DNA of 64,000 bases from Roseateles sp. XES5 (GTDB taxonomy: Bacteria > Pseudomonadota > Alphaproteobacteria > Rhizobiales > Rhizobiaceae): assembly GCF_020535545.1 (NCBI RefSeq), contig NZ_CP084752.1, positions 3,499,501-3,563,500 on the forward strand, written 5' to 3'. Numbering within the stretch: the stretch's first letter is position 1; each line of letters opens with the position of its first letter. The translations under genes were made by a program, and so were the position numbers. Of this stretch, positions 25,895-45,743 are shown one piece after another. The notes beneath the pieces were generated by a model that saw only the letters and a list, made by a program, of their open reading frames with translations, had not been told where the DNA came from and made no database searches.

Positions 25895-26182
25895 TCCTGT
25901 CGGCCCGTGGCCGCTTCATCCTGATGGCAGCATTTGAAGGCTTTTTGCAGGCTCCTACAAGCGCATCCAGCTTGTTGTCCAGCGCTGCTTGCCACCCAAG
26001 GCATTGCCCATTTAGCGCGCCGGAGGGGAAATGCGACAGTCCGGCCGGGAATATTCCCTGTGAATTCGCGGCTTTGCTTCCCCTCGGCGGCTTTTTGCGC
26101 TTCCCTCTGACGGATAAACATGATTCTGGCATCGGAACCGGGCGAAGCGCGACGACGCACGGCTGTTGCAGACGAGGGATTG

Positions 26183-28789
26183 ATGACGATGAAGCGGCCG
26201 GGCGAGGACAATCTGCCGATCGTGGACCGCGGCGTGCGGCCGGCGGTGGCGCTCCGCGTCGTGCTGCTCGCCATCGTGCTCGCGGCCTCGGCCGGGGCCT
26301 TCATCTTCTTCAAGAACCAACTCGACAACGAAATCGTGCTCGGCGTTCTCGGCGTTCTCGCCATGGCCGGCATCTTCTTCGTCGTCTCCGCGCTGATCGG
26401 CTTCATCGAGATCATGCCGCAGGCCGCGGGCTCGGACCCGCTGGCGCGCTCCTTTCTCGATTCGCATCCCGACGGCACGGTCGTCACCGACCGCAAGGGC
26501 CGCATCGTCTATGCCAATGCCGCCTATGGCGCGCTGACCGGGGCCAAGGGCGATGCCGAAGTCCAGACGCTGGAAACGCTGCTGTCGCGCAACCGCGACG
26601 CCACCGAAGCCGTCTACCGCCTGACGAACGGCCTGCACGAAGGCAAGGAAGGCGCCGAGGAGTTCCGAGTCCAGAAGGCGCTCAACCCTACGGCCGCCGC
26701 CGGTTCCGGCGCGCACTGGTATCGCCTGAAGGCCCGCGTGCTGCCGGGCCGCGAGAAGGACAAGCAGCCGCTCTACATCTGGCAGATTTCCGACATCACC
26801 TCCGAGCGGGACGACCAGGAGCGCTTCTTCAAGGAATTGCAGAACGCCATCGACTATCTCGACCATGCGCCGGCCGGCTTCTTCTCCGCCGGCCGCAAGG
26901 GCGAGATCGTCTATCTCAATGCGACGCTGGCCGAATGGCTCGGCATCGACCTCACCAAGTTCCAGCCGGGCTCGCTGACGGTTGCCGACGTGGTGGCCGG
27001 CGAGGGGCTGGCGCTCATCCAGTCCGTGCAGGCAGAACCCGGTCTCAAGCGCACGGAAACGCTGGATCTCGACCTGCGCAAGACGAACGGCCAGAGCCTG
27101 CCGGTGCGCATCGTACACCGCGTTTCCTCGATGCGCGACGGTGCGCCCGGCGAGAGCCGCACCATCGTTCTCGCGCGCGAGGAGGGCCGGGAGAGCGACC
27201 AGTCCGCCTCCATCGCCTCGATGCGCTTCACGCGCTTCTTCAACAATACGCCGATGGCCATCGCCTCCGTCGACGGCGGCGGCCGCATCCTGCGCACCAA
27301 CGCGCCGTTCCTGAAGCTCTTCTCCGGTGTCGTCTCGCGCGACGATATCGACCGTGGGGCCAAGCTGGAAACCATCGTGCGCGAGACGGATCGGCTGCGC
27401 CTGCAGTCGGCGCTCGACGCGGCCAAGGACCGGCAGGGGGACATTCCGCCGCTCGATTCGCTGCATCCGGGCGATGACGGCCGCCATTTCCGCTTCTATG
27501 TGAACGCCGTCATCGATCAGAGCGACGAGGCGCCGGAAGAGGCGGCCATCGTCTATGCCGTCGAGATCACCGAGCAGAAGGCGCTCGAGACGCAGATGGC
27601 GCAGACCCAGAAGATGAATGCGGTCGGCACGCTCGCCGGCGGCATCGCGCACGACTTCAACAACGTGCTGACGGCGATCCTGCTGTCCTCCGATCATCTC
27701 CTGCTCTCCGCGCGCCCGTCCGATGCGAGCTTCGCCGATCTCATGGAGATCAAGCGCAACGCCAACCGCGCCGCCGTGCTGGTGCGCCAGTTGCTCGCCT
27801 TCTCGCGCAAGCAGACCATGCGTCCGACCGTGCTCAACCTCACCGACGTCATCGGCGACCTGCGCATGCTCGTCGACCGCATGACGGGCACGAATGTGAA
27901 GATCGACGTCGACTACGGCCGGGATCTCTGGCCGGTGAAGACCGACCTCGGCCAGTTCGAGCAGGTGCTGATCAATCTGGCCGTCAATGCGCGCGACGCC
28001 ATGCCCGACGGCGGCACGATCACCTTCCGTACGCGCAATGTCGAGGCGGAGGAGGCTGCGGCGCGCAACCTTCGCGATCTGCCGGCCGGGGACTATGTGG
28101 AAGTCGAGGTTTGCGACCAGGGCACCGGCATTCCGCCCGAGATCATCGACAAGATCTTCGAGCCCTTCTTCACCACCAAGGAGGCGGGCCGCGGCACGGG
28201 CCTGGGCCTGTCCACGGTCTACGGCTTCGTCAAGCAGTCCGGCGGCTACATCTATCTCGATTCCGAAGTGGGCAAGGGCACGACCTTCCGCATCCTCATG
28301 CCGCGCCATATCGAGGAAGCGGTGCCGACGGAAGCCGGGGCCACCGCGCAGGCCACCGGCGAGCAGCGGCCCGCCGCCGTCGCGCAGGTGCCGGAAAAGG
28401 AACCGCGCGACCTGACGGGCGGTTCGGCCGTGGTTCTGCTCGTCGAGGACGAGGAAGCCGTGCGCCGCGGCGGCAAGCGCATGCTGGAAACGCGCGGCTA
28501 CACCGTGCATGAGGCCGGCTCCGGCGTCGAGGCGCTCGACATCATGGAGGAGCTGAACGGCGCGGTCGACATCGTCGTCTCCGACGTCGTGATGCCCGAA
28601 ATGGACGGCCCGTCTCTGCTGCGCGAGCTGCGCAAGACCTATCCGGACATGAAGTTCATCTTCGTCTCCGGTTATGCCGAGGACGCCTTCGCCCGCAACC
28701 TGCCCGCCGACGCCAAGTTCGGTTTCCTGCCGAAGCCGTTCTCGCTGAAGCAGCTTGCCGAAGCCGTCCGGGAAATGCTGGACGCGTGA
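26183..28789 (+). CDS. cckA: Cell-cycle hybrid histidine kinase CckA
   Basis: Membrane hybrid kinase that, through ChpT, controls phosphorylation of CtrA and CpdR and so cell-cycle progression. Two N-terminal membrane helices (about 17-40 and 52-76) precede PAS-type regions. The HisKA motif [15 protein letters not shown] has its histidine near residue 490. The ATPase motifs are [30 protein letters not shown] and [12 protein letters not shown]. The receiver domain has LLVEDEE, phospho-Asp near residue 801 in [12 protein letters not shown], and KPF. The ATG at 26183 follows GAGGGA; an upstream ATG at 26120 is also open. At 868 residues the length is typical of rhizobial CckA. Confidence 0.95.
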
Positions 28790-28794
28790 CGCCG

Positions 28795-29154
28795 TCAGCC
28801 CGGGACCACGCCGCGGCTTGAGACGGAGACCGAATTGCCGTCGGGATCCCTGGCATTGGCGAAGGCATAGTGCGCGGTCTGGTGGATCGGCCCGAAGGCG
28901 AAGCCACGGCCGGCGCTTTCGGCGCAGAATGACGCGACGTCGGCGACTGAGAACACCAGCTTTACCGTGGATTGCCCGATCTTCTGCCCTTTGGCGGCGG
29001 GGTGCAGCATGAGGCTGGCGCCACCGTGCGGATCGATCAGTTCGACGATCCGGTCACCCTCCGCCCGGTGGGCGACGAGCCCGAACAGGCTCGTATAGAA
29101 GCGCTCCGTCGCCTCGACGTCGCGCACATAGAGCAGGATTCGCGTCAGCGGCAT
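28795..29154 (-). CDS. VOC (glyoxalase/bleomycin resistance) family protein
   Basis: Small metalloenzyme-type or binding protein of the vicinal oxygen chelate superfamily. The fold pattern is seen in LTRILLYVRDVEATERFYTSLFGL, the conserved first strand and helix, and in ARDPDGNSVSVSS near the C-terminus, the second half of the paired beta-alpha-beta units. The 119-residue length is one VOC domain. The DPDGN motif without a clear glutamate metal ligand leaves the metal site uncertain. It converges with cckA, the stops being six bases apart. Substrate is unknown. Confidence 0.8.
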   Translation of the reverse strand: MPLTRILLYVRDVEATERFYTSLFGLVAHRAEGDRIVELIDPHGGASLMLHPAAKGQKIGQSTVKLVFSVADVASFCAESAGRGFAFGPIHQTAHYAFANARDPDGNSVSVSSRGVVPG

Positions 29155-29205
29155 GTCGCGCTCCCTGGAGGAAAGCGGCCGACATTCGCCGGCCGCTCCA
29201 TTTAC

Positions 29206-30132
<927 letters not shown>

Positions 30133-30190
30133 GCTGGTTCCTTGGAGAGTCCTGGGAGGAGACGTGCTCGGAATTTTGAGCAAAAAAGTC

Positions 30191-31138
30191 TCATGACAGG
30201 ATTTCGGCCTTCGGCACAAGTGAAAGTGCATTGGCCAGAGCCGCCTGCGACATTTCTTCGGCGACGGCCAGTGGCGAGCGTACGGTGATCGCCGCGGCCG
30301 CCACGCCATGGCGCAGGGCCTCGTCGATCGCGCTGCCGCCCGTCCAGGCGCTGAGAAACCCGGAGGCGAGCGAATCGCCCGCACCGGTGACGTCGCCGAG
30401 CGCTGGAATGTCCGGCGGGATGACGAGTACCGTGCTCTTTTCGTCGAATGCGATCACACCCTTTCCGCCGCGCGTCACCACGCCGGCCGAAAGCCCGGTC
30501 GCGCGCAGCGCCTTCGGCCAGTCGGCCGGATTGTCAGGCGCTTCGCCCGTCAGCGTACGCGCTTCGGCCTCGTTCATGAAGAGAAAGGCGAGGGCGGACA
30601 GGCTTTCGCGGAAGCGCACGACCTTTGCCGGCGAAATGGCGATGCCGGCGATCGGCACGCCGTGGGTTCCGGCGGCCGCGGTCATCGCGGCAAGGGTCTC
30701 GGCGGGCAGGTTCGCGTCCGTCAGGACCAGGCCGGCGGCGCTCATCGCCTCGCGCATCGCCCGCTGCTGCAGGCGGCGCGGCGAGAACAGCCGGTAGAGG
30801 TCCATGTCGGCGAGCGCGATGACGAGATTGCCGTCGCGCTCGATGATCGCGGTATAGCTCGGCGTCGCCCGGTCGAGGAAGGTGAAAGGCGTGTCCTCGA
30901 TGCCCGCCGCATCGGCCGCCGCCGCCACGATGTCGCCGTCGGCATCGCCGCCGCGCGGTGAAACGAGCCGCACCCGGTGGCCGAGCCGCGCCAGGTTGCG
31001 CGCCGCGTTGAACGCGCCGCCGCCCGCCTCCACGAACCAGGAACCCGGGTTGCTGGCGCCCGGCGCCGTCTCGCCGGATATGCGTCCGCGCCTGTCCACA
31101 TGGGCGCCGCCCATCACCAGTATCGTCCTCACGATCAT
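30191..31138 (-). CDS. psuK: Pseudouridine kinase (PfkB family)
   Basis: PfkB-type sugar kinase, expected from operon context to phosphorylate pseudouridine. Typical motifs are the N-terminal GGAHVDRRG and EAGGGAFNAARNLARLGHRVRLVSPRGGD, and the C-terminal anion-hole/base motif DVTGAGDSLASGFL where the aspartate of GAGD is catalytic. Length is 315. The start at 31138 was chosen over one at 31153 because GAAGGAA sits six bases upstream. It is divergent from recA. Substrate identity rests on the adjacent psuG rather than on specificity residues, so another nucleoside or sugar is possible. Confidence 0.88.
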   Translation of the reverse strand: MIVRTILVMGGAHVDRRGRISGETAPGASNPGSWFVEAGGGAFNAARNLARLGHRVRLVSPRGGDADGDIVAAAADAAGIEDTPFTFLDRATPSYTAIIERDGNLVIALADMDLYRLFSPRRLQQRAMREAMSAAGLVLTDANLPAETLAAMTAAAGTHGVPIAGIAISPAKVVRFRESLSALAFLFMNEAEARTLTGEAPDNPADWPKALRATGLSAGVVTRGGKGVIAFDEKSTVLVIPPDIPALGDVTGAGDSLASGFLSAWTGGSAIDEALRHGVAAAAITVRSPLAVAEEMSQAALANALSLVPKAEILS

Positions 31139-31288
31139 CGTCTTCCTTCGCATTCCGCCGGCCGATTCGGGCGCTTCGACCCGTCGCGGCGGCGGCTTTG
31201 TTCCTGTTTCCGCGTCGCTTTTGCCTACCTGAAACGAAAATAGAACACGATCTCGATTCTCAAAGCGATTCAAATGGATGAATGGGCC

Positions 31289-31305
31289 TTGCAGAAAGAG
31301 AACAA
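31289..31305 (+). promoter_or_regulatory. LexA operator of recA (TTG-N11-CAA)
   Basis: TTG at 31289-31291 and CAA at 31303-31305 are separated by exactly 11 bases, the operator form described for Rhizobium etli recA. An overlapping GAAC-N7-GTAC from 31300 partly matches the alphaproteobacterial SOS box. It lies 69 bases before the recA start. Confidence 0.65.
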
Positions 31306-31373
31306 AATGTGTACATAGCTTTCATCGGCGGCTTCGTTGCCTGTCTTGCTTCAATAACCTAAAGGTGGACCAA

Positions 31374-32459
31374 ATGGCACAGAACACTTTGCGGCTCGTA
31401 GAGGATAAAACAGTGGATAAAAGCAAGGCACTCGAAGCGGCTCTCTCCCAGATCGAGCGCTCGTTCGGCAAGGGCTCCATCATGAAGCTCGGTGGCAAGG
31501 ACAGCATCATCGAGGTTGAGACGGTCTCGACGGGGTCGCTCAGCCTCGACGTGGCGCTTGGTATCGGCGGCCTGCCGAAGGGCCGTATCGTCGAAATCTA
31601 TGGTCCGGAAAGCTCGGGCAAGACCACGCTGGCGCTGCAGACGATTTCCGAGTGCCAGAAGAAGGGCGGCATCTGCGCCTTCGTCGACGCGGAACACGCG
31701 CTCGATCCGATCTATGCCCGCAAGCTCGGCGTCGAGCTGGAAAATCTGCTGATCAGCCAGCCCGACACCGGCGAGCAGGCGCTCGAGATCGTGGACGCCC
31801 TGGTGCGCTCCGGCTCGGTGGACCTGATCATCATCGACTCGGTGGCGGCCCTGACGCCCAAGGCCGAACTCGAGGGCGAGATGGGCGACGCACTGCCCGG
31901 CCTGCAGGCCCGCCTGATGAGTCAGGCCCTGCGCAAGCTGACCGCCACCATCAAGAAGACCAACTGCACCGTGGTCTTCATCAACCAGATCCGCATGAAG
32001 ATCGGCGTGATGTTCGGCTCGCCCGAGACCACCACCGGCGGCAATGCCCTGAAGTTCTACGCCTCGGTGCGTCTGGACATCCGCCGCATCGGCTCGATCA
32101 AGAAGGGCGAGGAGGTGATCGGCTCCGAGACCAAGGTCAAGGTCGTCAAGAACAAGGTCTCGCCCCCCTTCAAGACCGCCGAGTTCGACATCCTCTACGG
32201 CGAGGGCATCAGCCGCGAGGGCGAGATCATCGACATGGGCGTGGTGGCCAAGGTGGTGGACAAGTCCGGCGCCTGGTACGCCTACAGCGGCGAGAAGATC
32301 GGCCAGGGCAAGGACAATGCCCGCGAGTTCCTGCGCGAGAACCCCGATATCGCCCGCGAGATCGAGATGACGCTGCGCCAGAATGCCGGCCTGATCGCCG
32401 ACCGCTTCCTCGAGAATGGCGGTCCGGACCCGAACGATGGCGACGACGGCGAACCCTGA
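31374..32459 (+). CDS. recA: Recombinase RecA, with a non-rhizobial central patch
   Basis: DNA strand-exchange protein and LexA co-protease. Walker A GPESSGKT is at residues 77-84, with [12 protein letters not shown] as Walker B and the L2 region [22 protein letters not shown]. Length is 361, typical for rhizobia. The N-terminal 140 residues and the last 35 ([17 protein letters not shown]) read as rhizobial. Between about residues 150 and 325 the sequence ([48 protein letters not shown]) and the near-exclusive CTG leucine codons look betaproteobacterial. The frame stays open across both joints. Function is certain; the mosaic may be recombination or assembly error. Confidence 0.95.
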
Positions 32460-32504
32460 TCGCGCCGGCGCCTTGAGCGCCGCCGCGTAAGCGGAACGGG
32501 AAAA

Positions 32505-32550
32505 CACCGAAACCGGCCTCTTCTTCGCGAAAGGCCGGTTTTTTGGTGTC
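32505..32550 (+). terminator. recA rho-independent terminator
   Basis: Stem AACCGGCCT / AGGCCGGTT with T-run TTTTTT at 32539-32544, extended by outer ACACC/GGTGT pairing. It begins about 45 bases after the recA stop and is a strong intrinsic terminator. Confidence 0.85.
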
Positions 32551-32790
32551 TGGACAGGTGCCGAGGCGGGCGATAAAAGCCTTGGGTTCTCGCGCGCGCC
32601 CCCGGTTTTCGCCGTTCCGCAATTCAGGCGGCAGGCGCGTGCAAATTCGACGGAATTCGCGAATGGATGGCTTGAGAGCCTCCGGGCGGGCACTCCGGCC
32701 GGCGGGGCGGTTTCGTCCTTGCCGAAGGTGACATTGGGTGGATGAGGCGCCGGACTTCGGTGCCGATAATGCTAGGATGAAGGACGCGAT
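32551..32790. other. Intergenic region before alaS
   Basis: About 240 bases after the recA terminator. No gene was recognized; the open frames present have no family or codon support. AATGCTAGGATGAAGGACGC just before the alaS start supplies the ribosome site. No T-box or other leader structure was identified. Confidence 0.5.
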
Positions 32791-35454
<2,664 letters not shown>

Positions 35455-35486
35455 GGCGATCCTTTCCTGATTGAAATCAATGCTGC

Positions 35487-35513
35487 GGCGGGCTCAGGCC
35501 CGCCGTTTCGTTT
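35487..35513 (+). terminator. alaS terminator
   Basis: GGCGGGC, loop TCAG, GCCCGCC followed by GTTTCGTTT, 33 bases after the alaS stop. A seven-bp GC stem with a broken T-run; good intrinsic terminator candidate. Confidence 0.7.
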
Positions 35514-35555
35514 GCGAAGTCTTCAAGGTTTCTGCCTAGCATTCCCGGGCTCGGA

Positions 35556-36785
35556 GTGCGTATTTTGATTGAAGACATCATCAGCATCTCAACCTTGATG
35601 ATCTGCACCTTCCTGTCGACCCTGGTCGTCGGGATTTTCATGTTCCAGGTCTGGTTCACCGACCGGCGCCATGCGGCGGCCGGCTACTGGTGCCTGTCCA
35701 TGTGGGTCGGTGCGCTCTGCACCATTCTCAGCGCGCTTCGCCCGATAGGCTATCCGTTGCTGACGGTCGGCCTCAGCAATGCGCTCGTGGCCCTCGGCTA
35801 TGCGCTGATGTGGGCGGGGTTTCGGGTCTTCGACCGGCGCGCGGTCCATTGGCCGGCGGTGCTGGCCGGGCCTGTCGTCTGGAGCCTTGCCTATCTGTTC
35901 GTGCCGCAGGTTTCCGGTGATGTGAACAACCGTATCATCCTCTCGTCCGTCATCATCACGGCCTATTCGCTCTGGATGGGCATCGACATCTGGCGCGGAC
36001 GGCGCAGCGAACCGCTGCCGTCGCGCACCATGTCTGCGATCTTCTTCCTGACGCACGGCCTCATCTATTCGCTGCGCATTCCCATGGCGGTCATCGCGCC
36101 GGTGCAGCTTGCGCACGGCACGGCCTATTCGCCGTGGTTCGCGCTCTTCTCGTTGGAACTGTTCGCCCATACGATCCTTGCCGCCGTCGCCATGCTGGTG
36201 CTCATCAAGGAACGGGGCGAAGCGCTTTACCGGCAACTTTCGCGTACCGACACGCTGACGGGCATCGCCAATCGCGGCTCCTTCCTCGATGACATGCGCA
36301 TGCACCTGTCCGGCAAGGCCGAGGGCACGCTGATGATTTTCGACCTCGACCGCTTCAAGGCGATCAACGACACCTATGGCCATGTCGCGGGCGATGCGGT
36401 GCTGAAGCGCTTTTCCGCCCGGGTTTCGTCCTGGCTGGAGGAGGGCATGCTGTTCTGCCGCTTCGGCGGGGAGGAGTTTGCCCTCTTCGCGCCGGGTCAC
36501 GGCATCGACCATGCGGAGCGTTTCGCAGAGAGCCTGCGGCGCGAGGTTGCGGCGATGGGCGTTTCGCATGAGGGGCGGGAGATCGGCATTTCCGTCAGCA
36601 TCGGTCTTGCCGATGCCGCGACCTTCGGTACGGATTTCGACCGGCTGCATTCGGCGGCCGACAGCGCGCTCTATGCCGCCAAGGAAGGCGGCCGCAACCG
36701 CGTGATGCGGGCGGCGCCCGCCACCGCGCTCGCTAGCCTTGCCGAACGCATGCGCAAGCCGGCGGCATTGAGCGTAGCCGGCTAA
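35556..36785 (+). CDS. Membrane diguanylate cyclase (GGDEF domain)
   Basis: Makes cyclic-di-GMP from two GTP. The first 210 residues contain about six to seven hydrophobic helices (STLMICTFLSTLVVGIFMF, LLTVGLSNALVALGYALMW, HTILAAVAMLVLI), a membrane sensor of unknown ligand. The C-terminal GGDEF domain has TLTGIANRGSFLDDM, FDLDRFKAINDTYGH and the active-site form FGGEEF, which is catalytically competent in related enzymes. There is no clear RxxD inhibitory site. The given start is a GTG; a TTG at 35565 has better spacing to GGAG and may be the real start. Length is about 409. Confidence 0.88.
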   Translation: MRILIEDIISISTLMICTFLSTLVVGIFMFQVWFTDRRHAAAGYWCLSMWVGALCTILSALRPIGYPLLTVGLSNALVALGYALMWAGFRVFDRRAVHWPAVLAGPVVWSLAYLFVPQVSGDVNNRIILSSVIITAYSLWMGIDIWRGRRSEPLPSRTMSAIFFLTHGLIYSLRIPMAVIAPVQLAHGTAYSPWFALFSLELFAHTILAAVAMLVLIKERGEALYRQLSRTDTLTGIANRGSFLDDMRMHLSGKAEGTLMIFDLDRFKAINDTYGHVAGDAVLKRFSARVSSWLEEGMLFCRFGGEEFALFAPGHGIDHAERFAESLRREVAAMGVSHEGREIGISVSIGLADAATFGTDFDRLHSAADSALYAAKEGGRNRVMRAAPATALASLAERMRKPAALSVAG

Positions 36786-38449
36786 CGATTTGCGATCTCC
36801 GCCAGGGCGGCGTCGACCGTCGGGGGAAATGCGACGCGGGATGCGTGCAGATCGTGCGCCTCGAGCATCCGCCTGAGGTCGGGTTTCAGCCCGGCGATGA
36901 AGACGCGCACGCCGGCCCGCTCCGCCTTGCGCACGAGCCCTTCGATGACGCTGGCGGCGGTCGAATCGAGGAAGGGCACATCGGTGCAATCGAGCACGAA
37001 GTTGCGCCGCCGGTCAGCGATGCGGTCGAGCACCGAACTGACGCTGGCCGCCGCGCCGAAGAAGAAGACGCCGCTGATGCGGTAGACCACGGTATCGGGA
37101 TCGTCCGCCACGACCGGCCGCTCCGGCAGTCCGCTGTCCTCCCCGGCATCCTCGATGGCGCGCACGAGGCGCGGGACGGCTTCCTCGCGAACGGCGACCG
37201 TCTTTCCCATGCGATCGATGAAGAGCACGGCGCCCAGAAGGAAGCCGACGACGATGCCTTCGGTCAGGTCGCGGAAGACGACCAGCAGGAAGGTGACGGC
37301 CAGCACCGCCGCATCGCCCCGCGAGGAGCGCAGGAGCGCGGCGATGGCGGGGCGCTCGACCATGTTGAAGGAGACGACGGCGAGCACGCCGGCAAGCGCG
37401 GCAAGCGGGATATAGCCGGCGAGCGGTGCGGCGACGAGCATGAAGATCAGGAGGAAGGTGGCATGCAGCATGCCGGAGACCGGGCTGGTGGCGCCCGAGC
37501 GCACATTCGTCGCGGTGCGCGCGATGGTGCCGGTCACGCAGATGCCGCCGAACAGCGCCGAGCCGACATTGGCAAAACCCTGGGCGATCAGCTCCATGCT
37601 GGAGCGATGCCGCCGGCCGGTCATGCCATCGGCGACGACAGCCGAGAGCAGCGATTCGATGGCGCCGAGCAGCGCGAAGGCGATGGCGTCCGGCAGGACG
37701 GCGAGCACGAGATCCGGCGAAAAGGACGGAAGCGCGGGCATCGGCAGACTGCGCGGAATGCCGCCGAAGCGGCTGCCGATCGTATCGGCCGGCAGGGAGA
37801 GAAGGGCGGTCGCCGCGGAGGCGACGGCGACCGCGATCAGAAGGTTCGGCCAGGTGGGGCGCAGGCGGCGCAGGACGAGGATGATCGCGATGGTGAGGCC
37901 GGCGACACCGACGGCGGCAGGAGTGACGCTCGCGCGCGCCGCCCAGAGCGCCATCAGCTTTTCGACGATGGGGCCGGGCTCGCGTCCGGCGAGTTTCAGG
38001 CCGAAGAGTTCGCCGATCTGGCTGGCGAAGATGATGACGGCGATGCCCGCCGTGAAGCCGACGGTCACGGGATAGGGAATGAACTTGATGTATTTGCCGA
38101 GCCGCAGATATCCCGCCAGCGCCAGCATGATGCCGGCGAGGAAGGTGGCGAGCAGCAGGCCGTCGACGCCGTGGCGGGCGACCGTTGCCGAGACGAGCAC
38201 GATGAAGGCGCCAGCCGGTCCGCCCACCTGGAAGCGGCTGCCGCCGAGCGCCGAGACCAGGAAACCACCGACGATGGCGGTGTAGAGGCCGCGGTCCGGC
38301 GTGACGCCGGAGGCAATGGCGATCGCCATGGACAGCGGCAGAGCCACGATGGCGACCGTCAAACCGGACAAGGCGTCCGCCCGAAGGCGCGCCGGCCCGT
38401 AACCCTCCGCGAAGACGCTGGCGAGCTTGGGCATCAACGTATCGGTCAT
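36782..38449 (-). CDS. SulP-family anion transporter with STAS domain
   Basis: Inner-membrane secondary transporter of the SLC26/SulP family, likely exchanging or co-transporting sulfate, bicarbonate or other anions. Multiple membrane helices run from residue 25 to 400, with VALPLSMAIAIASGV and PERGLYTAIVGGFL-like segments near the start. The C-terminal cytoplasmic STAS domain (about 430-545) includes FVLDCTDVPFLDSTAASVIEGLV. The start MTDTLMPK at 38449 is preferred; the longer open frame upstream runs into the divergent regulator's promoter. Length 555 is usual. The stop overlaps by four bases the end of the convergent cyclase gene. Substrate cannot be assigned. Confidence 0.88.
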   Translation of the reverse strand: MTDTLMPKLASVFAEGYGPARLRADALSGLTVAIVALPLSMAIAIASGVTPDRGLYTAIVGGFLVSALGGSRFQVGGPAGAFIVLVSATVARHGVDGLLLATFLAGIMLALAGYLRLGKYIKFIPYPVTVGFTAGIAVIIFASQIGELFGLKLAGREPGPIVEKLMALWAARASVTPAAVGVAGLTIAIILVLRRLRPTWPNLLIAVAVASAATALLSLPADTIGSRFGGIPRSLPMPALPSFSPDLVLAVLPDAIAFALLGAIESLLSAVVADGMTGRRHRSSMELIAQGFANVGSALFGGICVTGTIARTATNVRSGATSPVSGMLHATFLLIFMLVAAPLAGYIPLAALAGVLAVVSFNMVERPAIAALLRSSRGDAAVLAVTFLLVVFRDLTEGIVVGFLLGAVLFIDRMGKTVAVREEAVPRLVRAIEDAGEDSGLPERPVVADDPDTVVYRISGVFFFGAAASVSSVLDRIADRRRNFVLDCTDVPFLDSTAASVIEGLVRKAERAGVRVFIAGLKPDLRRMLEAHDLHASRVAFPPTVDAALAEIANR

Positions 38450-38627
38450 GGGCGCCTCGAAAGGCCGGAGGACGGAAGGAGCCCGGCGAATGCATCTCAC
38501 GCCGAGTCGCCCATATTTGCAATGACGGGAGGCAAAGCTCTGCGAAAATTGCAGGGCGCGGCAGAAGCGCAGGATTTGTGAAATCGCCCTGTGCTTGGTT
38601 GAATGCGTTCCGACGAAAGGAAACGGC

Positions 38628-39500
38628 ATGAGTGACAACGAAATCTGGGCCGCCTACGAGAAACGCCTGCTGCGGGTCTCCGCCTATATTTACGAGCATC
38701 TGGACGAGGATCTCGACCTTGACCGGCTGTCGGAAATCGCCTGCCTTTCCGCCCATCACTGGCACCGCGTCTACCGGGCCGTGCACAACGAGACGCTGGC
38801 GACGACCGTGCGCCGGCTTCGTCTGCACCGCGCGGCGGGCGATCTGGTGCGCAGCGAGACCGCCGTCCGGGACATCGCCGCGCGCTGGGGCTACCCCAAC
38901 CTGCAATCCTTCACGCGCGCCTTCGCGGCCTTCTACGGCATGCCGCCTGCGCGCTACCGCAAGGAAGGGTCCCATCGCGCCTTCGAAACCCATTGCGAAA
39001 GGGAGTCCCCCCGCATGTTCGACGTGACCGTCCGTACCCTTCCCGAGCAGACGCTGCTCGGCGTTCCCCATTCCGGGTCCTATATGGGCATCGGCAAGGC
39101 CTTCGAGGCGCTTTACGGCGCCTTGTTTTCCCGCAACATCTTCCAGCCGGACATGCGCATGGTCGGCGTCTTCCTCGACGATCCCGATCTGGTGGCGGAG
39201 GAAAAGCTGCGCTCCTTCGCCTGCGTCACCGCGTCGGGCGACGTGTCGGCGGAAGCGCCGCTTGTGCGCCGTACGCTTGCCGGCGGCGACTACGCTGTCC
39301 TGCGCCACAAGGGGCCCTATGCCAATATGGGGTCGGCCTATCGCTGGCTCTACGGCACCTGGCTTCCGGCGTCCGGCCGCTCGATCCGCGACGAAGTGAT
39401 GTTCGAATCCTATCTCAACAACCCGCGCGAGGTGCCGCCGAACGAACTCGTCACGGAAATCTGCCTGCCGCTCCAGCCGGCGGTCGAAGCGGCGGCCTGA
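38628..39500 (+). CDS. AraC-type regulator with GyrI-like effector domain
   Basis: Transcription regulator of the Rob/SoxS-like class with a C-terminal ligand-binding fold. Residues about 15-105 are two helix-turn-helix units (LDRLSEIACLSAHHWHRVYRAV and VRDIAARWGYPNLQSFTRAFAAFYGMPPARYR). Residues about 135-288 are a GyrI/SOUL-type effector domain with RTLPEQTLLGVPHSGSYMGIG and a C-terminal CLPLQP. Such proteins usually sense hydrophobic or cationic compounds. The ATG at 38628 follows AAAGGAAA. It is divergent from the SulP gene, whose promoter it might control, but no operator was recognized. A GC stem follows the stop. Confidence 0.88.
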   Translation: MSDNEIWAAYEKRLLRVSAYIYEHLDEDLDLDRLSEIACLSAHHWHRVYRAVHNETLATTVRRLRLHRAAGDLVRSETAVRDIAARWGYPNLQSFTRAFAAFYGMPPARYRKEGSHRAFETHCERESPRMFDVTVRTLPEQTLLGVPHSGSYMGIGKAFEALYGALFSRNIFQPDMRMVGVFLDDPDLVAEEKLRSFACVTASGDVSAEAPLVRRTLAGGDYAVLRHKGPYANMGSAYRWLYGTWLPASGRSIRDEVMFESYLNNPREVPPNELVTEICLPLQPAVEAAA

Positions 39501-39507
39501 CGAAAAG

Positions 39508-39527
39508 GGGCGGGTGAAAGCCCGCCC
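39508..39527 (+). terminator. Possible terminator hairpin after the AraC/GyrI gene
   Basis: GGGCGGG, loop TGAAAG, CCCGCCC, seven bases after the regulator stop. There is no T-run, so it is a weak intrinsic terminator, but it could protect the 3' end. Confidence 0.4.
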
Positions 39528-39540
39528 TGCACCGGATGTC

Positions 39541-39615
39541 GACATGCTCTAAATTCTTTTGTTTTCGTTTGTCTTTTCGGGAAAACCGGTTCCCACTTTT
39601 CCCTGACAAACTCTA
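39541..39615 (-). repeat. Dispersed intergenic repeat, copy 2
   Basis: Reverse-oriented counterpart of the repeat at 24679-24752, with one substitution and one extra base. On the minus strand it begins with TAG, which is the stop codon of the glutathione transferase gene, exactly as copy 1 begins with the stop codon of the phosphotransferase gene. It ends at AGAGCATGTC and lacks the long hairpin that follows copy 1. Confidence 0.9.
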
Positions 39616-40248
39616 GGCCTTCATCGCCTGAAGCTGGCGATGCATTTCCTCGTCGTCGATGGCCGTCGCCTTGATATAGGCGGGACGATCCTTGAGCCGG
39701 CCCCAATAGGCCTGGAATTCCGGCCGTGCCTCGAGCGAGCCGAATTGCAGGCCCCAGCTGATATGGGAACCGACATAGACGTCGGCCGCCGTGAAGCGAT
39801 CGCCGGCGATATAGGATTGGCGCGTGACGGCATGGGAGAGCGTGTCCATCACGGATTCGTAGCTGCCGCAGCCGATGCTGCGCTCGCGCTCCTTCGGAAC
39901 CGTCAGGCCGAAGGCCTTCAGCGAGACGGCCATTTCCAGCGGGCCGGCCGCGAAGAACAGCCAGCGATAATAGTCGCCGCGCTGGGCGGTCGGCGGTGCG
40001 AGGTTTGCTTCGGGGAAGGCATCGGCGAGATAGACGCAGATCGCGGCCGCCTCGGTGACAACGGTCGTGCCGTGACGGATGGCGGGCACCTTGCCCATGG
40101 GATTGACCGAGAGATAGTCGGCCGCCTTCATCGAGCCCTCGAAGGTCAGCCATTCCGTGCGGTAAGGGGCGCCGGTTTCCTCCAGCATCCACCGTGCGAT
40201 GCGTCCGCGCGACATCGGGTTGCTGTAAAAGACAAGCTCTTCGGCCAT
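39613..40248 (-). CDS. Glutathione S-transferase family protein
   Basis: Cytoplasmic protein of the GST fold, 211 residues. The thioredoxin-like N-terminal domain contains LVFYSNPMSRGRIARWMLEETG, where the serine is the candidate glutathione-activating residue, and the KVPAIRHG and VTEAAAICVYLAD segments that hold glutathione. The all-helical C-terminal domain has DRFTAADVYVGSHISWG, the N-capping motif of GSTs. The ATG at 40248 follows GGAGG at five bases. Its last codon and stop merge with a dispersed repeat. Substrate is unknown. Confidence 0.87.
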   Translation of the reverse strand: MAEELVFYSNPMSRGRIARWMLEETGAPYRTEWLTFEGSMKAADYLSVNPMGKVPAIRHGTTVVTEAAAICVYLADAFPEANLAPPTAQRGDYYRWLFFAAGPLEMAVSLKAFGLTVPKERERSIGCGSYESVMDTLSHAVTRQSYIAGDRFTAADVYVGSHISWGLQFGSLEARPEFQAYWGRLKDRPAYIKATAIDDEEMHRQLQAMKA

Positions 40249-40341
40249 GGCATCCTCCACTCGGCTGGCGAGGGGGAGAATAGGGCCTGACGGCGCGGCG
40301 GCAAGGGCCGGACGATGTTCCGGCCCTTGCTGCTGTTTTAC

Positions 40342-41604
40342 TCACACCGGCTTGTTGTGCGGCTGGAAGAGCTTTCCGCGCTCGGCGATCAGCACGAAGA
40401 TCAGGCCGATGATCGACAGCGTGAAGAAGCCCGTGACCAGCGGCAGGGCCGTGCCGTTGAAGGACTGGCCGATGATCGCGCCGATGATCGTGCCGCCGGC
40501 CGTGCCCATGAAGCCGAGCACGGAGGAGGCCGTGCCGGCGACGTGGCCGAGCGGTTCCATCGCCAGCGAGTTGAAGTTCGAGCCGATCCAGCCGAACTGG
40601 AACATCGAGAGCGCGAAGAGCACGATGAACAGCGCGAAGGGCAGGTGGCCCGGCCAGAGCAGCGTCAGCAGCATCCAGAGCGTATTGACCGCCAGGAAGC
40701 CCATCAGCGCGCCGTGCGACAGGCGTCGCATGCCGAACCGGCCGACCAGACGGGCATTGACGAAGGACGACAGCGCCATGAAGGCGGCGACGCCCGCGAA
40801 GGCGACCGGGAACCAGACGCCAAGCCCGTAGATGCCGACATAGATCTGCTGCGCGGAGTTGATGAAGCCGAACAGCGCGCCGAAGATGAAGGTGCTGGCG
40901 AGCGTATAGCAGAGGGCCACACGGTCCGTCAGCACGATGCGGAAGCCGGCGAGGACCGAGCGCACCGTGAAGGGACGCACGTCTTCGGGATGCAGCGTTT
41001 CCGGCAGGCGGAAATACATCCAGGCCCAGATGACGGCCGCCATCACCGCCATGAAGACGAAGATGAGATGCCAGTCGCCGAACAGCATGACGACCTGGCC
41101 CGTGCCGGGAGCAAGCACCGGAACGACCATGAAGACCATCATGATCAGCGACATCACCTCGGCCATCGCGCGCCCGCCGAAGATGTCGCGGACGATGGAG
41201 ACGGTGATGACGCGCATGGCGGCCGAGCCGATGCCCTGGATGAAGCGCAGCGCGAGAAGCGCGGCGAAGCTCGGCACGAGGATCGCGCAGAGCGACGACA
41301 CGATATAGATGGCAAGGCCGATGAACATGGGCACGCGGCGGCCGAAGCGGTCGGATACCGGGCCGTAGGCGAGCTGCGCGAAGGCGAAGCCGATCAGGTA
41401 GGCGGAAATGACATATTGCCGATGGTTCTCGTTCTCGACGCCGAGGCTGGCGCCGATCTCCTGGAGACCGGGCAGCATGATGTCGATGGCAAGCGCGTTG
41501 AGCGCCATCAGAAGCGCCATGAGCGCGATGAATTCTATCTTGCCCATGCCTTTGAGGCGCTGGGCCGATTCAGGGGAAAGTCCAGACATATCAATTTGAT
41601 CCAT
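40342..41604 (-). CDS. Bcr/CflA-type MFS drug efflux transporter
   Basis: Inner-membrane proton-coupled exporter of the major facilitator superfamily, drug-resistance (Bcr/CflA) subgroup. Twelve membrane helices fit the 420-residue length. Motifs include the helix 1 IDIMLPGLQEIGASLG region, motif A as YGPVSDRFGRRVPMFIGL between helices 2 and 3, and RFIQGIGSAAMRVI for helix 4 motif B. An alternative start is the methionine at 41589. It follows the glutaredoxin gene and its terminator. Actual export substrates are unknown. Confidence 0.88.
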   Translation of the reverse strand: MDQIDMSGLSPESAQRLKGMGKIEFIALMALLMALNALAIDIMLPGLQEIGASLGVENENHRQYVISAYLIGFAFAQLAYGPVSDRFGRRVPMFIGLAIYIVSSLCAILVPSFAALLALRFIQGIGSAAMRVITVSIVRDIFGGRAMAEVMSLIMMVFMVVPVLAPGTGQVVMLFGDWHLIFVFMAVMAAVIWAWMYFRLPETLHPEDVRPFTVRSVLAGFRIVLTDRVALCYTLASTFIFGALFGFINSAQQIYVGIYGLGVWFPVAFAGVAAFMALSSFVNARLVGRFGMRRLSHGALMGFLAVNTLWMLLTLLWPGHLPFALFIVLFALSMFQFGWIGSNFNSLAMEPLGHVAGTASSVLGFMGTAGGTIIGAIIGQSFNGTALPLVTGFFTLSIIGLIFVLIAERGKLFQPHNKPV

Positions 41605-41613
41605 GAAAGAGAT

Positions 41614-41639
41614 AAGGCGCCGCTGTTATGCGGCGCCTT
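41614..41639 (-). terminator. grxD terminator
   Basis: Ten-bp perfect stem AAGGCGCCGC / GCGGCGCCTT with a six-base loop, followed on the minus strand by ATCTCTTTC. It lies 33 bases beyond the glutaredoxin stop and just before the MFS gene, so the two are probably separate transcripts. Confidence 0.7.
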
Positions 41640-41671
41640 TGAAAAGCTTGCCGGCCGGGGACCGTGAAGCG

Positions 41672-42007
41672 TCAGGCAGCGCCCTTGACCGTAATACCCT
41701 GTCCCTCAAGATGGGACTGCAATTCGCCCGACTGGAACATCTCGCGCACGATGTCGCAACCGCCGACGAACTCACCCTTCACGTAAAGCTGCGGGATGGT
41801 CGGCCAGTTGGAATAGTCCTTGATGCCCTGGCGGATGTCGGCGTCGGCGAGCACGTTGATGCCCTTGTAGTCCACACCCACGTAGTCGAGGATCTGCACG
41901 ACCTGACCGGAGAACCCACACTGCGGGAATTCCGGCGTGCCCTTCATGAAGAGGACGACGTCGTTGGTCTTCACTTCGTTGGCGATGAAATCGTGGATGC
42001 CGCTCAT
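41672..42007 (-). CDS. grxD: Monothiol CGFS glutaredoxin
   Basis: Grx4-type glutaredoxin that binds a bridging 2Fe-2S cluster with glutathione and works with BolA in Fe-S trafficking and iron sensing. The CGFS active site is in [16 protein letters not shown] near residue 30. Glutathione-binding segments [21 protein letters not shown] are intact. The 111-residue size is standard. The start MSGIHDF at 42007 is chosen by family alignment. BolA is encoded three genes upstream on the same strand, consistent with a functional BolA-Grx pair. Two small genes of unknown function lie between them. Confidence 0.94.
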
Positions 42008-42126
42008 ATCCGTATTCCCTAGCAAATCGGCTTCAAGGACCGATGCGATGAACCATGCGCCCTAGATAACAACCTCGGGTGACAAATGCCAGAAGTCCCT
42101 TGGAAAAAATGCAAGGGGTAACCTTA

Positions 42127-42567
42127 TCATTTCAAGGGTGTTGCGCGGGTACCGCGCAGGCGGTGCGCCGTCAGCCAATAGACGAAACCACCGGCAAGGC
42201 CGCCGGCAACCGCGATGAAGGCGAAGCTGTCCGTCAGCAACAGGTTCTCGGATGCCACGAATCCGTCGAAAAGCGCCAGCGACAGGATGCTGTCCAGCCC
42301 GCCGGCAAGAATGAAGAAGACCGGGTTTTGAAAGCCGAGATACCGCGCGGCGAGGACGGTGGCGATGAAGCCCGGGAGCGCGCACACGAAGGTATAGACG
42401 CAGCCGATGATCAGAAAGGACGGCAGGTACTCGTCACTGCCGGTGCTCAGCCCGGCAAAGAGCGCGTTCACGACAAGGGAGGCCGTCACGACGGCCAGGA
42501 GATAGCCGCCGCCGATGCGCAGGAAGCCTGGGTGAAGGCTGCGGGCAGGCGTTGTCTCTTCGGTCAC
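42127..42567 (-). CDS. Small four-helix membrane protein of unknown function
   Basis: Predicted inner-membrane protein, 146 residues, with four hydrophobic segments: YLLAVVTASLVVNALFAGL, LPSFLIIGCVYTFVCALPGFIATVL, PVFFILAGGLDSILSLALF and SFAFIAVAGGLAGGFVYWL. No catalytic motif was seen and I do not recognize a named family. It lies 22 bases downstream of a basic protein gene and 119 bases upstream of the glutaredoxin gene, all on the minus strand. Co-transcription with bolA is plausible because the first two intervals are very short. Confidence 0.7.
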   Translation of the reverse strand: MTEETTPARSLHPGFLRIGGGYLLAVVTASLVVNALFAGLSTGSDEYLPSFLIIGCVYTFVCALPGFIATVLAARYLGFQNPVFFILAGGLDSILSLALFDGFVASENLLLTDSFAFIAVAGGLAGGFVYWLTAHRLRGTRATPLK

Positions 42568-42589
42568 GTCGCGGCCCGTTCCCGGTCGC

Positions 42590-42850
42590 TCAGCGGCTGC
42601 GCTGGCGCGAACGGCTTGCCGTCGTGCGACGACGGCTCACCTGCTTGCGCGGACGCTTCGCCGTCTTCTTCGCCGGCTTCAGCGCGGCCTCGATGATATC
42701 GCCGAGGATGCCGCCGGAGGCCTTCTTGCGCGTCGTCGTCTTGCGGCGCGTGCGCTTGGTGGTGGTCTTGCGCACGCCGGTCTTCTTCAGCACCTCCTTG
42801 AGGGCTGCGTCGACCACGCCGGAGACGAGTTCGTTGAGCAGGCCGGACAT
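42590..42850 (-). CDS. Short highly basic protein of unknown function
   Basis: An 86-residue protein with an unusual layout. An amphipathic N-terminal helix MSGLLNELVSGVVDAALKEV leads into a basic Thr/Lys/Arg tract (KTTTKRTRRKTTTRKK). A second helix GGILGDIIEAALKPAKK is followed by a basic tail ending SRSRQRSR. The basic tracts resemble histone H1-like or nucleic-acid-binding tails. No named family was recognized. It begins six bases after the bolA stop and ends 22 bases before a membrane protein gene, so it is probably in an operon with bolA. Binding to DNA or RNA is a guess. Confidence 0.7.
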   Translation of the reverse strand: MSGLLNELVSGVVDAALKEVLKKTGVRKTTTKRTRRKTTTRKKASGGILGDIIEAALKPAKKTAKRPRKQVSRRRTTASRSRQRSR

Positions 42851-42856
42851 GACAGG

Positions 42857-43090
42857 TCAGTCCGGCGCGGAGGTCTGCAGGGCGAGGGCATGCAGGACGC
42901 CACCCATGTTGCCCTTCAGCGCTTCATAGACCATCTGATGCTGCTGCACCCGGCTCTTGCCGCGGAAGCTCTCCGCGACCACCTCGGCTGCATAATGATC
43001 GCCGTCGCCGGCAAGGTCGCGGATCGTCACCTTGGCGTCCGGAATGCCTTGCTTGATGAGTGTTTCGATGTCGCCGGCGCTCATTGCCAC
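42857..43090 (-). CDS. bolA: BolA family protein
   Basis: Small Fe-S-linked regulator that pairs with monothiol glutaredoxins; in rhizobia such proteins influence iron and stress responses. The KH-like fold is visible in DAKVTIRDLAGDGDHYAAEVVAESF, with the RVQQHQMVYEAL segment containing the histidine used for cluster coordination, and the C-terminal GGVLHALALQT. A GTG start at 43090 is chosen because GGAGA lies seven bases before it; the ATG at 43084 is an alternative. The length is 77. grxD lies downstream on the same strand. Confidence 0.93.
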   Translation of the reverse strand: MAMSAGDIETLIKQGIPDAKVTIRDLAGDGDHYAAEVVAESFRGKSRVQQHQMVYEALKGNMGGVLHALALQTSAPD

Positions 43091-43421
43091 GGTGAAGTCT
43101 CCGATTCCGTTATTGCCCGTGCAGGATAGTGGCGAACATCCGGAAAGGTCAATCGCAGAGGTCGAGGTTCCCCGTCTTCTGCAATCGCGCAGAATCACGC
43201 TGCGTCATCGCCGATTGAGTTCGCACCGCTCTACGCCATGGCCTCCGCAACAGGGAGACTGGAAATGCACAACAGGCAAACCGTGCATCGCGGCGCGCCG
43301 CATCCCGCCCGCTCAAAAGGAAGCGGGCCCATCGTTCCGTAGAACCACGAGCCCGCCCGATGCCTTGCGTCAATCGTTCCGATCAGGCGTTCCGATCAGG
43401 CGTTCCGATCAGGCGGCCCGA
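43091..43421. other. Region between purL and bolA
   Basis: About 330 bases with no convincing gene. It contains the 13-bp tandem repeat beside the purL stop and a GCCCGCT/AGCGGGC stem near 43308-43329 that could serve as the purL terminator, though without a T-run. The bolA promoter must lie in the left part, near 43100-43200. Confidence 0.5.
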
Positions 43422-43426
43422 TCAGG
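43375..43426 (-). repeat. 13-bp tandem repeat overlapping the purL stop
   Basis: Four head-to-tail copies of a 13-base unit read on the plus strand as CGTTCCGATCAGG: three exact copies at 43375-43413 and one variant, CGGCCCGATCAGG, at 43414-43426. The variant copy contains the purL stop codon. The pattern suggests slippage duplication of the gene's last bases. Confidence 0.9.
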
Positions 43427-45641
43427 CAGCCTTGCCGTCCATGAATTCCGGGAACCAGGCTTCATGGGCCGTCTTCAGGCTGGCAACCGGCAGCGAGAAG
43501 AGGTCGCCGACGGACAGCGCGTCGCCGCCGACCGTGCCGAGACGGCGGAACGGTACGCCCGCGCCTTCCGCATTGGCCGAGACGAAGTTGGCGAGATCGG
43601 CCGGAACGGCGATCACGTAACGGGCCTGGTCTTCACCAAAGAGCAGCGCATGGGCCGGGGCGTTCGCCTCGGAGAGATCGACCGTCGCGCCCTTGCCGGA
43701 GGACATCGCCATTTCCGCCAGGGCGACGGCAAGGCCGCCGGAGGAAATGTCGTGGCAGGCCGTGACCTGGCCGTTGCGGATGGCCGAGCGCACGAAATCG
43801 CCGTTGCGGCGTTCGGCATGCAGGTCGACCTCGGGGGCCGGGCCGTCGATCTTGCCGACGACATCGCGCAGGTAGACGGACTGGCCGAGATGGCTGCCGT
43901 CCGTGCCGATCAGGAGCAGGTGGTCGCCGTCCTTCGCGCCACCGATCTTGGCCATGGCGGACCAGTCGGGCAGGAGGCCGACGCCGGCAATGGTCGGGGT
44001 CGGCAGGATCGCGATGCCGTTGGTCTCGTTGTAGAGCGAGACGTTGCCGGAGACGATCGGGAAGTCGAGCGCGCGGCAGGCTTCGCCGATGCCCTGGATG
44101 GCCTTGACGAACTGGCCCATGATCTCGGGCTTTTCCGGGTTGCCGAAGTTCAGGTTGTCGGTGGAGGCGAGCGGCTCGGCGCCGGTCGCCGTGATGTTGC
44201 GCCAGCATTCGGCGACGGCCTGCTTGCCGCCCTCGAAGGGATCGGCCTCGACATAACGCGGCGTCACGTCGGAGGAGAAGGCGAGCGCCTTGGTGGCGTG
44301 CCCCTCGACGCGCACGACGCCGGCGTCGCCGCCGGGGATCTGCAGCGAATTGCCCTGGATGAGCGTGTCGTACTGCTCATAGACCCAGCGGCGGCTCGAC
44401 TGGTTCGGCGAGCCGACGAGCTTCAGCACGGCCTCGGCGTAATCGGCAGGCTCGGCAACGAGATTGGCCGGCAGCGGGGCGGGCTTGCCCGGCTCGCGCC
44501 AGGGGCGGTCGTATTCGGGGGCTTCGTCGCCCAGTTCCTTGATCGGCAGGTTCGCGACTTCCTCGCCCTGGTGCAGGATGCGGAAGCGCAGGTCGTCGGT
44601 GGTCTTGCCGACGATGGCGAAGTCGAGGCCCCACTTGACGAAGATCGCCTTGGCCTCGCCTTCCTTCTCCGGCTTCAGCACCATGAGCATGCGCTCCTGG
44701 CTTTCCGACAGCATCATTTCGTAGGCGGTCATCTGCTCTTCGCGGACCGGCACGAGATCGAGGTTCAATTCGATGCCGAGATCGCCCTTGGCGCCCATTT
44801 CGACGGCCGAGCAGGTGAGACCGGCCGCGCCCATGTCCTGGATGGCGATGACCGCGCCGGTCTGCATCAGTTCCAGGCAGGCTTCCAGCAGGCACTTTTC
44901 GGTGAAGGGGTCGCCGACTTGGACGGTCGGACGCTTTTCCTCGATGGATTCGTCGAATTCGGCCGAGGCCATGGTCGCGCCGCCGACGCCGTCACGGCCG
45001 GTCTTGGCACCGAGATAGACGACGGGCAGGCCGAGGCCTTCGGCCTTGGAATAGAAGATCGCGTCGGACTTGGCGAGGCCGGCCGCAAAGGCGTTGACGA
45101 GGATATTGCCGTTGTAGCGCTGGTCGAATTCCACTTCGCCGCCGACGGTCGGCACGCCGAAGGAATTGCCGTAGCCGCCGACGCCGGCGACGACGCCGGA
45201 GACGAGGTGGCGGGTCTTCGGATGATCCGGTTCGCCGAAGCGCAGCGCGTTCATCGCCGCGACCGGGCGGGCGCCCATGGTGAAGACGTCGCGCAGGATG
45301 CCGCCGACGCCGGTCGCCGCGCCCTGGTAGGGCTCGATATAGGACGGGTGGTTGTGGCTCTCCATCTTGAAGACGACGCAGTCGCCGTCATCGATATCCA
45401 CCACGCCGGCATTTTCGCCGGGACCCTGGATGACGCGCGGCCCCTTGGTTGGCAGCGTGCGCAGCCACCGCTTGGAGGACTTGTACGAGCAGTGCTCGTT
45501 CCACATGGCCGAGAAGATGCCAAGTTCCGTGAAGGTCGGCTCGCGGCCGATCAGCGAGAGGATGCGGTCGTATTCATCCGGCTTCAGCCCGTGGGCGGCA
45601 ATCAGCTCCGGGGTGATCGGGCGGGTGTTTGAGATGGTCAT
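43422..45641 (-). CDS. purL: Phosphoribosylformylglycinamidine synthase subunit PurL
   Basis: Synthetase subunit of FGAM synthase (step four of de novo purine synthesis), turning FGAR, ATP and ammonia into FGAM. It is the small 739-residue form that needs separate PurQ and PurS. Diagnostic stretches are [40 protein letters not shown], and two pseudo-symmetric ATP-binding halves, the second with [25 protein letters not shown]. The C-terminus [14 protein letters not shown] is complete. purQ, purS and purC lie 2-4 kb upstream on the same strand, separated by the MocR locus. The stop lies inside a tandem 13-bp repeat. Confidence 0.96.
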
Positions 45642-45743
45642 CGTCGCTCGTCTTGTCGTGGAGGGCAGGATTGCGGTCTCTTTAGCCTATGCTGCTTTGC
45701 AGTGCGACAGGAAAATGTCCGCCAGCCACAGGGAGAGCGGCTT

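Follow-up and report, generated by a model that had tools for sequence, protein, structure and literature searches.

The recA gene in the stretch of DNA analysed here (the window, 64 kb) is a hybrid: its two ends are those of Shinella, whereas its central segment is foreign, betaproteobacterial and of a Roseateles type. Patches of the same donor type, about 80-1460 bp long and sharing 93-99% of their bases with a Roseateles-type genome (in the rRNA as much as 100%), lie in many other core genes of the contig, so that the hybrid recA is not a special event of that gene. It is probable (about 0.83) that the foreign recA segment is a sequencing or assembly artefact, in which the Shinella consensus was overwritten by Roseateles reads at conserved places, and it is nearly certain that an artefact of some kind, arising in sequencing or assembly, is at work rather than a natural hybrid. 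The contig (C1, 4,026,671 bp), which to judge from its sequence is a Shinella chromosome, belongs to a 5.81-Mb genome of six contigs with a listed completeness of 100% and a listed contamination of 0.15%. The genus has 20 other species in the comparison set (G001-G020), referred to below as congeners.

The foreign tract of recA

The features of the window on which the analysis rests are as follows.

31374..32459, + strand: recA coding sequence with Shinella 5′ and 3′ parts (TIGR02012 score; the parts outside the tract match the 20 congeners)
31746..32362, + strand: Roseateles-type tract inside recA, 617 bp (two-state segmentation)
32791..35454, + strand: coding sequence presumed from its sequence to be alaS, Shinella-like apart from the patch below
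32855..33099, + strand: second Roseateles-type patch, in the 5′ part of alaS, 245 bp (segmentation and identity)

The recA product has 361 residues and scores 566.8 bits against the RecA equivalog family TIGR02012 (cut-off 325.3), which places it in that family. A search of the genome found no second recA, the sole other match being weak (28%), and a second copy is thereby ruled out as the source of the tract. Nucleotide identity to the 20 congeners is 0.879-0.938 over the first 372 bp of the gene (31374-31745) and 0.798-0.947 over the last 94 bp (32363-32456), but only 0.733-0.796 over 31746-32362. The corresponding values for two Roseateles-type genomes, G259 and G336, are 0.65 over the first part, 0.95 over the tract and, from just 58 aligned bases, 0.43 over the last. 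A sequence-only reading of this DNA had called the ends of the gene rhizobial and its middle betaproteobacterial; these identities bear it out and narrow the source to a Roseateles type, and all three peptides that it quoted fall within the foreign tract. The tract that it placed at 31800-32350 is real, although slightly narrower than the segmented one. Base-level informative sites put the start at about 31746-31755 and the end at about 32349-32362, the informative donor sites running from 31755 to 32349. When one relative of each kind is compared, the tract holds 126 donor-only and 19 Shinella-only sites, and base by base the switch in identity is abrupt at both ends of the tract; two lone donor-matching sites lie upstream of it, at 31562 and 31601.

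The protein gives the same picture. The longest exact run that this RecA has in common with P0008 (RecA, Roseateles sp.) and P0009 comprises 207 consecutive residues (125-331), and among the matches listed for residues 140-335 the best named ones are Roseateles and other Burkholderiales, with stray names as exceptions (e.g., one Methylotenera and one Phreatobacter MAG). None of the 20 congeners carries the segment, over which they are 70-74% identical to this gene in amino acids and 73-80% in nucleotides; the two congener pairs measured are 93% (L002-L010) and 98% (L002-L003) identical to each other over it. The cluster to which this RecA belongs (P0007) has a single member sequence on a single contig, the present one. 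Six further RecA-like proteins (P0001-P0006; 311-459 residues), each with one member on one contig, have an internally repeated core or tail and look like the products of duplicated or mis-assembled recA genes.

Codon usage had also been offered as a sign of foreign origin. The count of 13 CTG to 3 CTC leucine codons is exact for 31746-32362 and becomes 11 to 2 over 31800-32350, the latter being also the count in each of two donor loci (L155 and L156). As an argument, however, it is weak by itself, because the congeners are CTG-leaning too (8-10 CTG to 4-6 CTC in the three counted).

The donor itself appears to lie outside the set compared. The 16 genomes of the genus of Roseateles aquatilis (G065) reach at best 92% over 31722-32367, and 399 genomes drawn evenly from the larger family of G065 reach at best 94% over the recA segment (G336 and G259); the three genomes of the genus of G259 and G336 gave no better match to it. 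The closest donor DNA compared is 95% identical in the tract, not 99-100%. With G259 and G336 taken as joint donors, seven sites of the tract have the majority Shinella base and three a minority Shinella base, and such residual sites fit a donor outside the compared set. Each of the 16 patches segmented on the contig is 93-99% identical to G259, and the foreign part of the 16S rRNA gene is 96-100% identical to it per 100 bases; the patches point to one kind of donor, of Roseateles type.

Mobile elements were considered as sources and rejected. The best phage match to 31800-32360 reaches 77.9%, far below the 95% of the Roseateles-type genomes, and the best plasmid match to the whole of recA, also below that level, is from a Shinella relative (84.4%). 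Recorded in passing, the phage match lies at 1296-1848 of a 27-kb record (OQ572410.1, Pseudomonas phage Y8), a stretch that may be bacterial DNA within a phage record; the other phage matches listed are at or below 72.7%. Four Variovorax “plasmids” of about 0.8 Mb (NZ_LR594667.1, NZ_LR594660.1, NZ_LR594672.1 and NZ_LR594690.1) have an annotated recA, and in the search with the whole gene the Variovorax recA-bearing plasmid records gave 78.5-78.8% over query bases 90-972.

Patches in other genes of the contig

The gene after recA, which we take to be alaS, holds a second patch 0.5 kb downstream of the recA tract, one that the sequence-only reading does not mention. This patch is 99.2% identical to G259 compared with 80% to Shinella G003, with 50 donor-only and two Shinella-only sites. 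In the comparison by 100-base windows, the 64-kb window was set against Shinella over its whole length and against Roseateles at recA alone. A direct Roseateles search covered 26001-46000 (20 of the 64 kb), and there the remaining matches of at least 250 bases are 66-75% identical, as expected of ordinary homologues. In 40-base blocks, a stretch of about 90 bp at 28156-28246 matches two Roseateles loci at 90-93% and four Shinella relatives at 80-90%; it could be a small patch or simply a conserved motif.

Roseateles-type patches are also present in rpoB, rpoC, fusA, tuf, rpsL, atpD and the 16S rRNA gene of the same contig. Three of these loci (rpoB, 16S and atpD) were picked as controls for their conservation, and all three are patched. 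The rpoB product has a family score of 1884, compared with 1938 and 1940 in two congeners, and in a block comparison of the gene (middle rows of the table, the first and last being non-aligning ORF ends) Shinella-like blocks of 93-99% identity alternate with Roseateles-like blocks of 92-100%. Around rpoB (C1:10001-65000), 40 of 550 hundred-base windows favour Roseateles, with a margin of over 5 points and an identity above 88%. Of the 55 kb fetched, 2.3 kb at the start and 17.5 kb at the end had no counterpart for comparison, so that about 35 kb was effectively tested; two-state segmentation found 12 patches there, of 81-1463 bp and 5109 bp in total, three of which lie in rpoB or reach into it. 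At atpD, a patch of 992 bp matches G259 at 98% and Shinella G003 at 78%; another, of 153 bp, lies at the edge of the locus fetched. Scored in 60-bp windows, donor-type sequence makes up 32/66 windows in rpoB, 19/70 in rpoC, 3/5 in rpsL, 9/35 in fusA, 10/18 in tuf, 16/25 in atpD, 10/19 in recA and 4/43 in alaS, as well as 1/7 in a 143-residue protein near rpoB (presumably RplK) and 1/4 in a probable shadow ORF; unlike rpoB, the genes rpoC, rpsL, fusA and tuf are presumed from gene order and length. The recA, alaS and rpoB operon regions are still collinear with Shinella, and the less conserved sequence between patches is Shinella.

The rRNA is affected likewise. The one 16S gene found in this genome (L214, C1:1708327-1712829) is a Shinella/Roseateles hybrid: in 13 windows of 100 bases (L214:1501-2800) the identity is 96-100% with G259 as against 64-90% with Shinella PSBB067, whereas Shinella sequence makes up the opposite end of the gene and most of the spacer. 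Past the spacer, another 300 bp that by position belong to the 23S gene are 100% Roseateles, and the 23S is probably patched too. PSBB067 served as the Shinella reference because a search of G002 and G003 with RF00177 returned no 16S rRNA, though the listed completeness of these genomes is 100% and 99%; on the PSBB067 replicon the same rRNA query found three places, compared with the one 16S gene here.

Patching, local similarity and the joints

The frequency of patches rises with the local similarity of Shinella and Roseateles. This was tabulated over 480 codon-aligned 60-bp windows from 33 ORF triples (this genome, Shinella and Roseateles), kept as reciprocal best pairs when the alignment took in at least 60% of their length and scored above 0.7 bits per residue, one triple (a 96-residue antisense ORF) being probably a shadow. 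By identity between the two genera, the donor-type windows are 1/64 below 0.50, 3/103 at 0.50-0.60, 1/67 at 0.60-0.65, 10/61 at 0.65-0.70, 23/66 at 0.70-0.75, 21/53 at 0.75-0.80, 23/34 at 0.80-0.85, 16/22 at 0.85-0.90 and 7/10 at 0.90 or more; that is, 5/234 below 65% identity as against 46/66 at 80% or above. Random transfer would predict a weak dependence on local similarity, and the strong dependence seen thus speaks against random transfers. Ten of the 33 triples contain donor-type windows and 23 do not. The latter are for the most part less well conserved; two short ones, of 122 and 102 residues, nevertheless have 75% and 74% amino acid identity between Shinella and Roseateles, compared with 70% for recA.

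The patch edges agree with this dependence. At all 30 edges of 15 of the 16 segmented patches (the 153-bp patch at the edge of the atpD locus being left out) the similarity of the two genomes is higher within the patch than beyond it, a comparison that serves as support only, since unaligned Roseateles positions count as mismatches and lower the outside values. With G003 and G259, one relative of each kind, standing in for the true parents, the stretch of three-way identity at a joint measures 3-18 bp at 28 of the 30 edges; the two exceptions measure 29 and 44 bp. Lengths of 3-18 bp are short both for the k-mers or overlaps usual in assembly and for efficient RecA-dependent exchange. The recA tract, with its sharp ends inside a native gene, has the form of a mosaic gene; such an event, however, would be expected at one or a few loci and untied to alignability, and here patching follows alignability in many genes.

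Origin of the patches and comparison with known systems

The favoured explanation supposes that the sequenced DNA contained both Shinella and Roseateles, as a mixed culture or a metagenome. Roseateles reads would have been recruited to the Shinella contig solely at places where the genomes resemble each other closely enough for an alignment, and would there have outvoted the Shinella reads in consensus calling, correction or polishing. The true recA of the Shinella strain would then probably have ordinary Shinella sequence across 31746-32362. The earlier remark that the reading frame is kept and that both joints lie in conserved sequence holds for the recA tract, and the frame would be kept because one correct homologous coding sequence has been replaced by another. 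Several observations count against an artefact. The assembly looks good by its contig number, completeness and contamination; the nearest donor DNA compared falls short of identity in the recA tract; and overwriting is incomplete, in that 52 of the 119 windows of at least 75% identity are not donor-type (49 Shinella-type and three undecided) and 23 of the 33 triples, the two short conserved ones among them, have no donor-type window. In addition, similarity-dependent patching is expected, in some form, of homologous recombination also.

Natural recombination at many loci would have a Shinella strain take up Roseateles DNA and replace short homologous tracts in many core genes. The in-frame recA tract agrees with this, as do the position of tracts in conserved sequence and their greater frequency where the genomes are alike, and bacteria of the two kinds could share habitats. 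It is nevertheless very unlikely, for it needs some 18 separate replacements (the 16 segmented and two in the rRNA) between genomes 76-84% alike inside the tracts, with tracts down to 81 bp and joints mostly as short as those above; it has rRNA, RNA polymerase and translation genes hit at once, and the recA tract occurs in none of the 20 congeners. Were it true, a natural fine mosaic of dozens of short in-frame tracts, taken from one betaproteobacterial donor into recA and the genes for rRNA, RNA polymerase, elongation factors and ATP synthase, would mean that genome-wide homologous exchange is possible between distant groups at 16-24% divergence. Exchange confined to recA in a single event, for which the one crisp tract and one donor type might be cited, is contradicted by the same-donor patches in alaS, rpoB, rpoC, fusA, tuf, rpsL, atpD and the rRNA, and its likelihood is negligible. 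The same can be said of ordinary rhizobial variation mistaken for foreign sequence. RecA is a conserved protein, parts of which are common even to that of E. coli, but close rhizobial relatives with the same residues were looked for and the 20 congeners yielded none, all of them being 73-80% identical to this gene over the segment.

Rather improbable, and itself an artefact, is a chimera of the assembly graph, whose path would have crossed between Shinella and Roseateles at k-mers common to both, leaving whole read-supported pieces in alternation. Sharply bounded blocks that alternate, with their joints in conserved sequence, are what this would produce, but the joints are short at 28 of 30 edges with a maximum of 44 bp (a value that may be different for the true parents), and the path would have had to come back, time and again, to the genome that it had left 81-1463 bp earlier. 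The sequence-only reading had left the choice between a recombination event in the recombinase gene and a chimeric assembly. With patches in many genes the former is not supported; the latter is, and we infer that its form is a consensus overwritten at conserved places and not two contigs misjoined.

As biology, the hybrid recA is not to be put forward as a case of transfer between distantly related bacteria. The 16S, rpoB, recA and atpD sequences are commonly used for identification and for trees, and in a genome whose listed completeness and contamination raise no concern all four are part Roseateles, which is a warning about data quality. Replacement within genes would be expected to escape marker-gene counts and the classification of whole genes or contigs. 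The frequency of foreign patches as a function of local similarity to one contaminant provides a simple test that is applicable to other public genomes.

Among the matches listed from open-licence literature, searched by topic (mosaic or hybrid recA; contamination through consensus or polishing; enrichments with Shinella and Pelomonas; genome chimerism), the titles and openings of abstracts did not describe the artefact in this form. Chimeric contamination is described as sequences of different organisms in one contig, arising through a contaminated specimen or confounded assembly (PMC10978663). The present contig likewise holds sequences of different organisms, but where that description has foreign sequence joined to a contig, the contig analysed here has had homologous stretches of many core genes exchanged in place. 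A GUNC-based survey of GTDB genomes for contamination reportedly discarded, from every bacterial genome flagged, the half that was most contaminated (PMC11261887). In Vibrio parahaemolyticus 090-96, a hybrid recA is reported to have arisen when an insertion of about 30 kb, bringing in a complete second recA, interrupted the native gene (PMC4334540). In both cases recA is read as fragments of different species origin, two in that strain, but the present genome has no insertion and one recA, with an in-frame replacement of 617 bp. Mosaic Campylobacter alleles are reportedly ascribed to introgression between two closely related species (PMC3139442). The patchwork alleles are alike, whereas the present donor and recipient are only distantly related, and within a single genome the patches track conservation across many genes.
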